From assembly GCA_025454395.1 (NCBI GenBank), contig JALOOM010000010.1, positions 62,001 to 126,000 of the forward strand: DNA of 64,000 nt, in the 5' to 3' direction. Below the pieces are notes generated by a model. That model ran no database searches, had not been told where the DNA came from, and saw only the letters and a program-made list of their open reading frames with translations. The stretch is from Elainella sp. Prado103. Lineage in GTDB: Bacteria > Cyanobacteriota > Cyanobacteriia > Elainellales > Elainellaceae. A program made the translations under genes and the position numbers. Position 1 is the stretch's first letter; every line of letters begins with the position of its first letter. Shown one piece after another: positions 8,576 to 42,682 of this stretch.

Positions 8576-8888
8576 AAATGGCAGAACCCTAAACTCTGAT
8601 CCTTGCGTCCTGACAACCCGTTCTGATTCCTGCTTCTACAGATCGACCTTCAACCGATCGAATCAACCGAGTCAACCAGTCTGCAAGATGAATCAATGGG
8701 CTGGAATCTCAAACTATGTGATTAAGGCTCGGAATAAATAAATGAGAATTTTGAAAATCTTCTAGAATACGAACAATATACAGAGAATTCTATATAGACT
8801 CCGGTGCAGGTCAGAAAGTTTTATGGATTCTTATCAAGAGTTCATGAATCGCAATTTTCTGACTTGCAAATTTTGCGATCGGGGTTGC

Positions 8889-9019
8889 CAGTCGGTCAGT
8901 GTTCAGTCGGTCAGTATTCAGTCGGTCAGTATTCAGTCGGTCAGTGTTCAGTCGGTCAGTGTTCAGTCGGTCAGTATTCAGTCGGTCAGTATTCAGTCGG
9001 TCAGTATTCAGTCGGTCAG
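8889..9019. repeat. 15-bp tandem repeat, 8.7 units
   Basis: The unit is cagtcggtcagtatt, with g or a alternating at one position (order of the variable base: g a a g g a a a). The array ends exactly where the MITE terminal repeat begins. Both strands are open through the array only because a 15-bp unit keeps frame. Confidence 0.97.
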
Positions 9020-9168
9020 CTGATTGACTGACAAAACTCAAACTACCCACTGCTACGCAGAAGCAAGCGACACCCCAACCCCTCGCCCGCTCTGGGAGAG
9101 GGGCTTTCGAACCAGGATTGGATTGCAAGTCCCTTCGCCCCTAGTGGGAGAAGGGATTTAGGGATGAG
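9020..9168 (-). mobile_element. MITE family 1, copy A (inverted, one end lost)
   Basis: It begins with the terminal repeat CTGATTGACTGACAAA and matches the reverse complement of the copy at 42269-42442 up to ...aagggatttagggatgag. It then diverges, so the other terminal repeat is missing. No protein is encoded. The intact length elsewhere is 174 bp. Confidence 0.85.
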
Positions 9169-9493
9169 TGTAATAAATTGGGAGATTGGTCATCGTTAAG
9201 CGGGATGCTCGTGGGCGAAATGCCCGTTTGATCTGAAAATTGATTCGATAAATTGATTCGATCCCGCTTTTGATCACCCTTGATCACCCTACTGATCAGG
9301 ATCATTTCCCGCCTCTCCTGTCCTGCTTCCTGAGGAGAAGGGAGTGAGAGTCTGGTGCCCTCGATCCTTTCAGGTAGGGTAATCCGAACTCGCGGAGGAG
9401 CAAGCCCTTCTGAGTAGAATAAAGAGCGATCGTACTTTTTCATGATTCAGCTTCGAAATCCATCTGTCTCTCTATCCCCCGTAAAGTAGGCTT

Positions 9494-12280: not shown

Positions 12281-13393
12281 TTAGCGACGAATCCAGCCGT
12301 TAATCGTAAACCGACTGTCTAGGAAATTTTGAGAAGGACACTGGATCGGCAGCACTTCGTGCATGTAGCGGCTACGAAAAAAGACAATGCTATTATTGCG
12401 AGGCTCGATCGTTTGAAAGGTATCGGCTTGAACGTAATAATTATTTTCTACCTTACTGTCATAGATCACTAATTCACCGCCGGTAAAAGGCTTGGGCTCT
12501 CGATAAAAATAGTAAACGTAAGTTAGCTCACGGGTGATGGTGTCTGCACTACCATTATCGTTATGTACCTTATAAAATTGTCCGTCGTTATGGGCAGTGA
12601 GTTGGGCTTCAATTTGGCTAATGGGAAAAGCGGGGAGTCCCAAATGGGCAAACACTTGCGGGGCGATCGAAACCAACCGTTGCCGGATTAAATCTTCAAA
12701 TTCCGGAAAGGCATAGAGCACAACGGATTCCCGATAGTTTTGAGCCCCGGTGAAGGTGGTGGTGCCCACAAACTCAGATTGGTGTTGTTCTACATAGGCC
12801 AGCAAAGCCCGGTGCTCATCAACGGTGAGGAAGTGATCTAACTGAAGATATTCGGAAAGTAACGGGTCGCGTTCTGCTGATTGGGTACTGCTCCATTGGG
12901 TGGATGCATGGGATGAGCTAGAAGATGCTTGGCTGTCTTGCTCCACGATAATCGGTGGATCGGTAATCACCCCCACCAATCGATCGCTCGGAAAGGCCAG
13001 AACAGCCGCTCCTTGGCGGATCGGAATTTGAAATAACCGTCGCGAGGCAGTGGGATGAGTTGCCATTAGGGTTTCAAACAGATCGGATAACAACTCATCT
13101 GTGGGATCGATCGTGAGTGTATATTCCTGCCCACCGGATAACAGTAGGGTGACGGTCACTTGATCCAATTCATCGGTCAATTCATCGGTCAATTGATCTC
13201 CTGATTGATCTCCTGATTGATCAGAATCTTCGTCCCCCTCTGGCGGAGTCAGCGAGGATAAATCCCCGATTTCCTGCTGCGGATCGATCGGTCGATCAAT
13301 CCCTAACGCTGATGCAGCCATCGACGGCTTGATCGATCGCGATGCCGAGGACTTGGATGGTTTCACAGATGCTGCGAATCCTTTGGACTTCAT
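12281..13393 (-). CDS. 2OG-Fe(II) oxygenase, prolyl-4-hydroxylase-like, with acidic N-terminal extension
   Basis: The C-terminal half (about residues 180-370) is a 2-oxoglutarate/Fe(II) double-stranded beta-helix domain. Iron ligands fit His277-x-Asp279 (KVHND) and His345 (YMHEVLP), with Arg361 as the 2OG-binding residue (LDSRFTINGW). The PFTGGELVIYD motif is typical of the P4H group. The N-terminal half (1-175) is not recognised. It has an acidic tract with duplicated SGDQ and LTDE units from an in-frame tandem repeat, and a Ser-rich linker. It is probably a protein or small-molecule hydroxylase, substrate unknown. Confidence 0.85.
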   Translation of the reverse strand: MKSKGFAASVKPSKSSASRSIKPSMAASALGIDRPIDPQQEIGDLSSLTPPEGDEDSDQSGDQSGDQLTDELTDELDQVTVTLLLSGGQEYTLTIDPTDELLSDLFETLMATHPTASRRLFQIPIRQGAAVLAFPSDRLVGVITDPPIIVEQDSQASSSSSHASTQWSSTQSAERDPLLSEYLQLDHFLTVDEHRALLAYVEQHQSEFVGTTTFTGAQNYRESVVLYAFPEFEDLIRQRLVSIAPQVFAHLGLPAFPISQIEAQLTAHNDGQFYKVHNDNGSADTITRELTYVYYFYREPKPFTGGELVIYDSKVENNYYVQADTFQTIEPRNNSIVFFRSRYMHEVLPIQCPSQNFLDSRFTINGWIRR

Positions 13394-13439
13394 GACATTT
13401 ACCCTTTTCAGATATCCTCATCACAAACAGGAATTGACC

Positions 13440-13777
13440 CTGATTGACTGACCCATCTTTTCCCCTCATCCCTCAATCCTTTCTCCCCCTAGGGGCTACT
13501 GTGTACACACATCGCTGAGTTGCTGCTAAATTGCTGATTGATCCCCCTAAATCCCCTTTTTTAAGGGGGACTTTGAAAACTTTGGGTTCGGTTCCCTCCT
13601 GGTTAAGAAGGGTGAGGGAGGATCGGAACGACTTGTGTGTACAAGGTAGCCCCTAGGGGCGAAGGGACTTCCAATCCAATCCTGGTTCGAAAGCCTCTCG
13701 CCTGCTCTAGGAGAGGGGTTGGGGTGTCGCTTGCTTCTGCGCAGCAGTGGGCGGTTTGAGTTTTGTCAGTCAATCAG
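13440..13777 (+). mobile_element. MITE family 1, copy B, interrupted by a second element
   Basis: The ends are CTGATTGACTGAC... and ...TTTTGTCAGTCAATCAG. Removing the 154-bp insert and one 10-bp duplication leaves 174 bp, exactly the length of the intact copy at 42269. The flanks ggaattgacc (13430-13439) and ggaatcgacc (13778-13787) match at 9 of 10 positions, consistent with an aged target-site duplication. It lies between purH and the oxygenase gene and fills most of that 573-bp gap. Confidence 0.9.
13496..13649. mobile_element. MITE family 2, nested inside MITE copy B
   Basis: A 154-bp element whose ends are CTACTGTGTACACA and TGTGTACAAGGTAG, an imperfect 14-bp inverted repeat. It is flanked by the identical 10-mer cccctagggg at 13486-13495 and 13650-13659. 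The interior contains a palindromic stretch of the type ccccctaaatcccc...aaggggga that is common in cyanobacterial dispersed repeats. It has no coding capacity. Confidence 0.88.
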
Positions 13778-13936
13778 GGAATCGACCCGCTCTCTCCTGG
13801 TATACTGCCTCGCACCTGAGCGATCCGTATAGATTAAGTGATCTCCCATGTAGATTCTGTAAGATTTAGTCTGGAGTAGAGCGGTGTATTTTTAGAGATG
13901 ATCGCCGTGTCAAAGTCAATGCGAAAGTCAATACAT

Positions 13937-13975
13937 TAAATCAATGCATAAAATCAATGCATAAAATCAATGCAT
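13937..13975. repeat. 13-bp tandem repeat overlapping the purH stop codon
   Basis: The unit is aaaatcaatgcat, three copies. The purH stop (TGA, at 13967-13969 on the plus-strand map) lies in the third unit, and the two further copies are downstream of the gene. The encoded end is RHFMH; PurH proteins commonly end RHFRH, so the gene end is natural and the copies are extra. Confidence 0.9.
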
Positions 13976-15616
13976 AAAATGCCGTACTCCCGTTAATACC
14001 ATCACAATTCCCAACTCATCGGCCGCTTTGATCGAATCTGCATCGCGCAAACTGCCTCCCGGCTGCACGATCGCGGCGATCCCGGCTGTGGCTGCGGTGC
14101 GCACTGAATCATCAAATGGGAAGAAACCATCGCTGGCCAGCACGGCTCCCTGAGTTTTCTCACCCGCTTGCTCTAGGGCAATCTTGACCGATCCCACGCG
14201 ATTCATCTGTCCGGCTCCCACGCCACAAGTGGTTTGATCTTGGGTAACGACGATCGCATTCGACTTCACATGCTTACACACCTTCCAGGCAAACAGCAGT
14301 TCGGCGAGTTGGGTCGGAGTGGGTTGTTTTTGGGTTACCACCTGCCACTGGTTTGGATCGGTGAGTTGATCGTCCGCCTGCTGCACCAGAAATCCACCGG
14401 CAATTTGCTTTACTAACTGCGCCGGCCCACTGATCAGATCCGGTAGCACCAAAACACGCACTTTGGATTTAGCACGGAGCAGTTCGGCCGCATCCGGAGC
14501 GCACCCTGGAGCCACCACACATTCCAAAAATGTTTGGGTCAGTTGGCTGGCGGTAGCCGCATCGATCGGTTGATTGAGAGCCACAATCCCTCCAAATGCG
14601 GAAACTGGATCTGCGGCAAAGGCTTTTGTATAGGCTTGCTCGATCTGATCACCAAGCGCCACACCACAGGGATTAGTATGTTTGATGATCACGGCGGCCG
14701 GTTGGCTCCTAAACTCGGCAATAATCCGACGAGCGGCTTCCAAATCGACCAAATTGTTGTAACTCAGTTCTTTGCCTTGGAGTTTTTGTGCCGCCGCCCA
14801 ACCGCTCGGAACGGCTCCGGTTTGATACCAAGCGGCGGGCTGATGGGGATTTTCACCGTAGCGAAGGGCTTGGAGTTGGCTGCCTTCCAGGCTATATTGG
14901 GCGGGCAATGCTGGATTTGCGTTTGTATTTGCATTTATATTTGCGTTTATATTTGCATCTGGATTTGCATCTACATTGGCATCTATACCAGCACCAGGAT
15001 GGGAATCCGTCGGAGAATTGGCCGCTGGTTGCGCCCCCACCTGACGCAAGTAGCCAGAAATTGCCCGATCGTATGCTGCCGTATGTTCAAACGCTCGTAG
15101 GGCACAAGCCTGACGGAATGCTAGAGAAGCCTCGCCATTTTCTCGTAGTTCTGTCAGGTAAGCTGGATATTGGCTGGGGTGACACAAAACCGTCAGGTGG
15201 GCAAAGTTTTTAGCCGAGGCCCGCAACATGGCCGGACCACCAATATCGATCTGTTCGATCGCTGCTGCCAATGTTACATCGGGTTTGGCGATCGTCTGCT
15301 CAAAGGGATAGAGGTTCACGACTACGAGGGCGATCGGACGAATTTGGTTAGCTTCTAGATCGGCCACATCCTGCGGTTGATCGAGCCGAGCCAAGATGCC
15401 GCCATGGATGCGCGGATGCAATGTTTTAACTCGCCCCCCCAAAATTTCTGGCGATCCCGTATAGTCTGAAACTTTCATCACGGGAATGCCTGCCTGCTTC
15501 AGCGCTTGCGCGGTGCCACCACTACTGATGATTTCAAACTCCAATGCCACGAGGCTCTGAGCAAACTCGATCAAGCCAGTTTTGTCTGAGACACTCAGGA
15601 GTGCCAAACGTGCCAT
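13967..15616 (-). CDS. purH: Bifunctional AICAR formyltransferase/IMP cyclohydrolase PurH
   Basis: It performs the last two steps of IMP synthesis. The N-terminal MGS-like cyclohydrolase domain (about 1-190) carries SVSDKTGLIEFA, SSGGTAQAL, GGRVKTLHPRIHGG and the INLYPF-like VVVNLYPFEQT. The C-terminal transformylase domain carries LRYGENPHQPAAWY, the catalytic IKHTNPCG, and DGFFPFDDSV. The 549-residue length exceeds the usual 510-530 because of an Asn/Asp/Ala insertion (about 196-236, DAN and NAN units) at the domain junction, encoded by a 12-bp-type DNA repeat (about 14922-14990). The active-site motifs are intact, so it should be functional. Confidence 0.97.
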   Translation of the reverse strand: MARLALLSVSDKTGLIEFAQSLVALEFEIISSGGTAQALKQAGIPVMKVSDYTGSPEILGGRVKTLHPRIHGGILARLDQPQDVADLEANQIRPIALVVVNLYPFEQTIAKPDVTLAAAIEQIDIGGPAMLRASAKNFAHLTVLCHPSQYPAYLTELRENGEASLAFRQACALRAFEHTAAYDRAISGYLRQVGAQPAANSPTDSHPGAGIDANVDANPDANINANINANTNANPALPAQYSLEGSQLQALRYGENPHQPAAWYQTGAVPSGWAAAQKLQGKELSYNNLVDLEAARRIIAEFRSQPAAVIIKHTNPCGVALGDQIEQAYTKAFAADPVSAFGGIVALNQPIDAATASQLTQTFLECVVAPGCAPDAAELLRAKSKVRVLVLPDLISGPAQLVKQIAGGFLVQQADDQLTDPNQWQVVTQKQPTPTQLAELLFAWKVCKHVKSNAIVVTQDQTTCGVGAGQMNRVGSVKIALEQAGEKTQGAVLASDGFFPFDDSVRTAATAGIAAIVQPGGSLRDADSIKAADELGIVMVLTGVRHFMH

Positions 15617-42268: not shown

Positions 42269-42442
42269 CTGATTGACTGACAAATCTTTTCCCCTCATCC
42301 CTAAATCCCTTCTCCCACTAGGGGCGAAGGGACTTGCAATCAAATCCTGGTTCGAAAGCCCATCGCCCGCTCTGGGAGAGGGGTTGGGGTGTCGCTTGCT
42401 TCTGCGTAGCAGTGGGTAGTTTGAGTTTTGTCAGTCAATCAG
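42269..42442 (+). mobile_element. MITE family 1, copy C (intact, 174 bp)
   Basis: The terminal inverted repeats CTGATTGACTGACAAA match perfectly at both ends. A perfect 9-bp target-site duplication gttcggaag flanks it (42260-42268 and 42443-42451). The interior is GC-rich in the right half (gctctgggagaggggttgg) with no coding capacity. The perfect duplication suggests a recent insertion. The transposase supplying it in trans is not in this window. Confidence 0.93.
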
Positions 42443-42682
42443 GTTCGGAAGAGTACTGGACTGTAATCGACCTTACATCGACCTTACTAGGATCGACACT
42501 AAGATCGATCCCTGGATTGTGATCGATCCTCCTGGGATTGGCATTAGATCAGCAGATCAGCATTAGATTGGCATCGGCACTGGATCGGCACTGGATTGGC
42601 ACTGGCTTGTAAGCGATCCTGGATCACCACTAGCTTGGCACTGGATCGACTAGGCGAAACGACCTGCCATGACAACCCAGCA

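Follow-up and report, generated by a model that had tools for sequence, protein, structure and literature searches.

A MITE nested within a MITE in Elainella sp. Prado103 points to a Tn5-like insertion sequence that probably targets inverted-repeat centres and may need a -1 frameshift

In a 64,000-nucleotide stretch of the Elainella sp. Prado103 genome (here called the window; contig JALOOM010000010.1, positions 62,001 to 126,000), a 154-bp MITE lies within a 174-bp MITE, and comparison with its relatives suggests a rule behind this arrangement. We propose, with a probability of roughly 0.85 on the basis of sequence comparisons, that the inner MITE is a non-autonomous element moved in trans by a Tn5/IS50-like insertion sequence (IS) into the centres of hairpins, that the outer MITE was in place first, and that the transposase of this IS is apparently produced by a -1 shift in reading frame. 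Visible in the DNA itself are the nesting, the duplications, the ends shared by MITE and IS, the homology of the transposase, the symmetry of the targets and a conserved frame offset. As a nested repeat the arrangement is genuine but of an ordinary kind, and what makes it valuable is the underlying rule and the partner IS.

The outer MITE at this locus, copy B, occupies positions 13440..13777 (plus strand), has the ends CTGATTGACTGAC/GTCAGTCAATCAG, and measures 174 bp once the 164 bp due to the inner insertion are subtracted. It is bordered by 10-bp target duplications that differ by one mismatch, GGAATTGACC at 13430..13439 and GGAATCGACC at 13778..13787 (both plus). The inner MITE (13496..13649, plus strand, 154 bp) runs CTACTGTGTACACACA...TGTGTGTACAAGGTAG between two copies of the 10-mer CCCCTAGGGG, at 13486..13495 and 13650..13659 (both plus). 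The initial annotation had proposed exactly this insertion, and its placement of the ends holds, although the inverted repeats are imperfect: the right end, which reads CTACCTTGTACACACA inward, has over its 14 bp (CTACCTTGTACACA) two mismatches to the left end. The element is short and gene-free, without any open reading frame of at least 80 amino acids; its duplication and the ends that it has in common with an autonomous IS are further properties of a MITE, and it contains a two-hairpin core common to other genera. When the flanks were joined by script, the result was 92% identical over 175 bp to outer copy A (42269-42443) and 86% identical to outer copy C (9181-9020, minus strand), in agreement with the earlier claim that excision restores a 174-bp parent. 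The uninterrupted outer-family site has 82 matches in the genome at up to three mismatches (50 of them exact), and two of the 82 directly adjoin the inner element or its IS. Since some 80 outer-family sites are thus uninterrupted, the 10-mers around the inner element do not go back to an earlier duplication, a possibility that the initial annotation had raised against itself. At the level of sequence, the nesting of the 154-bp MITE in the 174-bp MITE with flanking duplications is confirmed, and the proposed order of events, outer first and inner second, stands. Because the left flank reads CCCCCTAGGGG and the right flank CCCCTAGGGG, the duplication of copy B may be one of the usual 11 bp that lost one C.

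The nested MITEs are flanked by two minus-strand genes, one purH-like (13967-15616), whose stop faces them, and one 2OG-Fe(II) oxygenase-like (12281-13393), which faces them with its start. A search of positions 13300-14000 against Rfam gave a single match with an E-value of 0.23, far below the gathering score. Just downstream of purH, at 13924-13975, there is a short tandem repeat with the 13-bp unit AAATCAATGCATA, and the purH-like protein contains a low-complexity, Asn-Ala-rich insert (DANVDANPDANINANINANTNANP).

Two uninterrupted outer copies are found in the window. Copy A (42269..42442, plus strand, 174 bp) has a 9-bp duplication, GTTCGGAAG, and carries two palindromes, CCCACTAGGGG (palindrome 1, element positions 46-56) and CCCGCTCTGGG (palindrome 2, element positions 98-108). 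As single-stranded DNA, palindrome 1 is predicted to form a hairpin loop (-9.2 kcal/mol, z -2.8), and palindrome 2 folds less clearly (z -1.3). Copy C (9020..9181, minus) is diverged; an open reading frame with a DRLNT repeat (8811-9128, minus), a tandem repeat overlapping the region of this copy, is probably no real gene. Among 30 loci examined, both ends of the outer element were found in 24 copies, of which 21 have a duplication of 8-10 bp with at most one mismatch and 16 one of 9 bp. This length and the ends of the outer family differ from those of the inner element, whose duplications are mostly 10-11 bp, which bears out the suggestion of a second, independent transposase. Judged by eye against Table 1 of PMC2266710, the outer ends also fit the IS50-subgroup end signature. 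A search with these ends revealed no autonomous partner of the outer MITE among the first 100 of 199 matches listed, and a PF01609 search of the genome yielded two places only, the IS described below and a damaged gene on contig C38.

Of the 16 matches to the inner element in the Elainella genome (5.84 Mb, 157 contigs), 11 are full or nearly full copies, four are halves located at the ends of contigs, and one, L016, is weak and only partial. With L016 left out, 13 of 15 copies sit in the outer MITE. Palindrome 1 holds seven full copies and all four halves (11/15), and one copy (L006) is inserted at palindrome 2. Another (L005, G000:C119:8802-8955) has palindrome 1 as its left flank and palindrome 2 as its right flank while the intervening stretch is absent, which suggests recombination between two inner copies, one in each palindrome. 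The two copies outside the outer MITE are L003 and L004. The genome has 1351 CCCN5GGG sites, and the palindrome 1 sites, about 80 in number, make up roughly 6% of these yet take 11 of the 15 insertions (a plain ratio, with no probability attached). The initial annotation had recommended comparing the targets of other copies, and this comparison agrees with both the nesting and the site preference. Copies lacking a duplication, which it had named as a sign to the contrary, are in the minority: seven of the 11 full copies have duplications of 10-11 bp with at most one mismatch and one (L011) has a duplication with two mismatches, while L002 is cut by a contig end and L003 and L005 have none. Judging from their sequences, the 13 copies in the outer MITE go back to repeated insertion, for which this MITE served as the landing site.

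Beyond Elainella, eight genomes contain MITE copies that share the ends of the inner element and have a similar core (the core alignment comprises 16 hand-chosen copies from nine genomes). In relatives of the family in other genomes, a duplication of 8-11 bp with at most one mismatch is present at 24 of 36 distinct places, two further rows being repeats of the same places, and absent at 12. In the 32 duplicated sites outside Elainella that were used for statistics, the length is 10 bp in 17, 11 bp in 11, 9 bp in two and 8 bp in two. The duplication of exactly 10 bp originally reported therefore describes copy B, and the usual length is 10-11 bp, with none fixed.

The targets are symmetric beyond the duplication. 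When the 4 bp adjoining each edge of the duplication are paired, 0.734 of positions in the 32 sites from other genomes are complementary, as against 0.243 for shifted centres within these flanks (0 of 5000 draws reached the observed value); in seven sites of the Elainella genome the values are 0.536 and 0.230 (2 of 5000). These counts cover copies with a duplication, so that 12 of the 36 places in relatives and 12 of 22 IS loci are excluded, as are L133 (a near copy of L077) and L009 (in which an extra base blurs the duplication). Duplications start with C at 37 of 39 sites and end with G at 34 of 39. As a control for such a constant bias towards C at the left and G at the right, the right arms of 33 sites were re-paired at random, with L117 and L130 also excluded as near copies of L112 and L077 and with the kinship of genomes and repeats uncorrected; the observed complementarity was 0.720 compared with 0.538 after re-pairing (0 of 5000). 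Since re-paired arms still reach 0.538, most of the symmetry reflects base preference, to which true complementarity adds. Clean insertions at hardly palindromic sites (L099, L111, L126, L127, L132) indicate that a hairpin is preferred and not needed. Eight of the 33 joined sites (L077, L078, L091, L093, L095, L119, L124, L159) match the two-hairpin core of the inner element itself at E <= 1e-5, so the inner element also lands in repeats of its own kind. By eye, a complete IS lies at the centre of a hairpin in Leptolyngbyaceae cyanobacterium MO_188.B28 (L171:1332-2811), and its host element has the ends of the outer MITE, so that this landing site has been used independently there. From these sites, insertion probably prefers the centres of G+C-rich inverted repeats. 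The preference for palindromic targets suspected at the outset thus persists in a broader form, as one for the centres of longer inverted repeats in many genomes. In two copies, L084 and L085 (G003:C293 and G003:C112), the flanks look swapped, the left flank of one pairing with the right flank of the other; this exchange would be due either to recombination between copies or to misassembly.

Several other explanations of these insertions have to be considered. The inner element could have a TA or CTAG duplication, as in the IS630/IS701 type, with longer ends (GGGGCTAC...GTAGCCCC) that mimic a 10-bp duplication, and as the flank of copy B is itself a palindrome, the short and the 10-bp duplication are inseparable from that copy alone. 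However, only CTAC...GTAG is constant in copies with non-palindromic duplications (CCCACTAAAAG in L007, CACCCCAGAGG in L004, CCCAACACTGG in L125 and CACGGACAAAG in L187). These copies rule the short duplication out, and the Tn5-like transposase speaks against it as well, so that we give it practically no credence. The nested composite could also have arisen a single time and been copied afterwards as the outer MITE moved, in which case the repeated target would reflect shared ancestry. One point of the outer MITE does hold 11 of the 15 inner copies, as such a history would predict. Yet the inner element is found in both orientations relative to the outer MITE, the second palindrome is used in L006, other sites in relatives have this symmetry too, and in L001, L007, L008 and L009 the insert is bordered on both sides by a site variant peculiar to that copy (CCCCTAGGGG, CCCACTAAAAG, CTCACTA[AG]GGG and CCACCAGGG, respectively). 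A private variant on both sides of an insert must have been there before the insertion, and its presence in several copies points to separate insertion events; a single origin is accordingly very improbable.

More weight, if still little, attaches to the idea that the elements cluster at hairpins because insertions are tolerated there and not because the enzyme chooses them. Most targets do resemble repeats outside genes, and survival in such tolerant intergenic repeats could inflate the preference, but tolerance would not centre the duplication exactly on the axis of symmetry, as the excess over shifted centres given above requires. We therefore consider tolerance by itself improbable, and retain repeated insertion into hairpin centres as the preferred reading.

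A transposase source for the inner element was sought through its ends. A pattern search with the inner end at up to three mismatches returned the known copies and one inverted pair 1396 bp apart, which encloses a transposase gene (G000:C153:1206-2601). The IS with the ends of the inner element, whose identification had been proposed as a check, is thus found, and its transposase is of the Tn5/IS50 type: it matches the NCBIfam model NF033590 (transpos_IS4_3) at 1.7e-108 (363 bits, cut-off 160), and its nearest solved relative is Tn5 transposase (4e-34). The IS4 signature Y(2)R(3)E(6)K is present as YRWRWRIEQLFAILK. The putative DDE residues are D58, D162 and E303, with spacings of 104 and 141 that were compared by eye with the ranges in the consulted part of PMC2266710; the choice of the catalytic Asp is an assignment that we infer from the alignment, D162 being Glu in one of four aligned transposases (L097). 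Signature and DDE spacing, the transposase model and a duplication of about one helix turn (mostly 10-11 bp) together place the element in the IS4 family. The IS end CTACTGTGTACACACAAGT fits the IS50-subgroup signature CW------Y---CA-A--W-, from which the left end of the inner MITE departs at position 19. The subgroup's duplication of 8-9 bp is seen at only 4 of 32 sites and one of 10 or 11 bp at 28 of 32, counted over the sites in other genomes that have a duplication.

In the Elainella genome this copy is damaged, with about 90 bp near the 3' end missing relative to its relatives, and the transpos_IS4_3 model has no other match there. Damage to the sole gene of this type counts against a current source of transposase in this genome, and by sequence the partner IS is decayed here and intact in other cyanobacteria. 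A scan with one genome per species found 39 related IS loci, nearly all cyanobacterial, with one non-cyanobacterial label, a Tatlockia bin (L182) that may be mis-binned. At 22 of the 39 a matching pair of ends lies 1464-1572 bp apart (the pair of L189 weakly so), and 10 of these 22 have a duplication of 9-11 bp while 12 have none.

The transposase gene has a further unexpected property. In 30 of 34 IS copies, which are partly dependent (L169, L170 and L181 come from one genome), the frame encoding the AFGDPRL peptide of the Tn5-like DNA-binding region continues into the main frame by a step of -1 (examined in the first 200 bp of the IS copies L076:1206-2601 and L151-L187). L173 and L175, both partial copies, encode the DNA-binding and the catalytic part without a change of frame, and for L168 and L177 one of the two parts was not recognised. 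The consulted text of PMC4066793 names tetramers of the form Z_ZZN as -1 motifs, and the junction, which reads AAA AGG GGG in the N-terminal frame of 30 of 33 copies, has a G_GGN or A_AAA motif in all 33 copies in which this frame was found. Third codon positions of the N-terminal frame vary most before the junction (0.58 versus 0.31 and 0.26), and those of the main frame after it (0.53 versus 0.27 and 0.19; 28 copies, L180 being anchored one base off). With the frames joined, both proteins examined pass the Pfam cut-off for Tnp_DNA_bind (2/2), which neither does from its main frame alone (0/2). The alignment to Tn5 transposase starts at residue 19 with the joined protein and at residue 51 with the main frame alone, and against the Tn5 inhibitor chain the joined protein starts to align at its residue 51. 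In Tn5, the inhibitor is made from its own start. As a control, eight more distant Tn5-like genes from the same genomes were inspected: five have both motifs in one frame, and in three the first motif was not found.

The offset could instead stem from decay or sequencing error, or the two frames could encode separate proteins and no fusion. The two partial copies that read through in one frame and the damaged state of the Elainella copy are compatible with decay, but an offset that is identical in 30 of 34 copies, a third-codon signal that switches frame at the junction and a -1 motif in every copy with a recognised N-terminal frame speak against it, and separate proteins are at odds with a DNA-binding domain that is recognised by Pfam in the joined protein only. 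We regard these explanations as rather unlikely. The conserved offset at AAA-AGG-GGG instead suggests programmed -1 frameshifting, so that the gene would apparently need a one-base ribosomal slip to be read whole. The absence of a frameshift is a stated hallmark of IS4 transposases in the available part of PMC2266710, from which the partner IS would deviate. We found no description of such an offset in a Tn5-like IS in the literature searched, coverage of which extends to few subscription journals; for DDE_Tnp_1 transposases PMC3711429 reports -1 clusters, and its searched text mentions neither IS4 nor IS50, so that earlier detection is possible.

The cyanobacterial IS is therefore best compared with IS50/Tn5 of the IS4 family (IS50 subgroup). 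Its transposase is homologous over almost the full length once the frames are joined, its ends fit the signature in Table 1 of PMC2266710, and most copies fall within 1350-1550 bp; in contrast to IS50, its duplications are mostly 10-11 bp and not 8-9 bp, its transposase is split over two frames, and it strongly prefers the centres of inverted repeats. A precedent within the IS4 family is ISRm22 (IS4Sa subgroup) of Sinorhizobium meliloti, which according to the consulted passages of PMC1525189 is inserted at the symmetry axis of palindromic REP repeats. That element, however, is a full IS of another subgroup, whereas here a MITE is inserted in a MITE and several unrelated kinds of target are used. 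Likewise, the palindrome of QMITE2 is described in the part consulted of PMC10969869 as a target of IS1111 in Coxiella burnetii; there, too, a palindrome inside a MITE serves as target, but the inserted element is an IS with another type of transposase. Nezha and other MITEs in the same portion of PMC10969869 are also short, non-autonomous cyanobacterial elements, a likeness by description alone. Literature searches with the inner end sequence returned unrelated papers only, and those with the repeat core and with part of the outer MITE returned seemingly unrelated ones among the matches listed.

Taken together, the comparisons are consistent with the following scheme, in which we infer that the MITE is mobilised in trans, that the enzyme itself prefers hairpins, that the frame is shifted and that the truncated product acts as an inhibitor. 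The inner MITE would be mobilised in trans by a cyanobacterial IS that shares its terminal 16-18 bp. The transposase would cut the target with a stagger of 10-11 bp and would favour the middle of G+C-rich inverted repeats, whose typical form is CC[CT]-N4-5-[AG]GG with complementary arms; a cut there yields a palindromic duplication. The outer MITE would be older and moved by a different transposase that makes 9-bp duplications; with two hairpin centres and tens of copies, it would have become the main landing site, so that insertion of the outer element was followed by that of the inner one, repeatedly, in many outer copies. The transposase would be made by a -1 shift from a short N-terminal DNA-binding frame into the main frame. 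Without that shift, the most to be expected from the main frame is a protein that lacks its N terminus and is similar to the Tn5 inhibitor.

We lean, with some reservation, towards a more general proposal: that there is a clade of cyanobacterial Tn5-like IS elements in which a -1 frameshift at AAA-AGG-GGG joins the two domains and in which targeting of hairpin centres builds composite MITEs. If this is true, the products of the unshifted frames would be a DNA-binding peptide on its own and possibly a truncated protein like the inhibitor, and one MITE family would serve as the landing pad for another, with composites arising by repeated nesting. If the transposase is indeed frameshifted, a hallmark of the IS4 family would be broken, and the ratio of active to inhibitory protein could be controlled in a manner comparable with Tn5. 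A single nested repeat would thereby have led to a measured rule, that a Tn5-like enzyme goes to the middles of inverted repeats, which would explain the stacking of cyanobacterial repeat families and give ordered layers of mobile-element activity.
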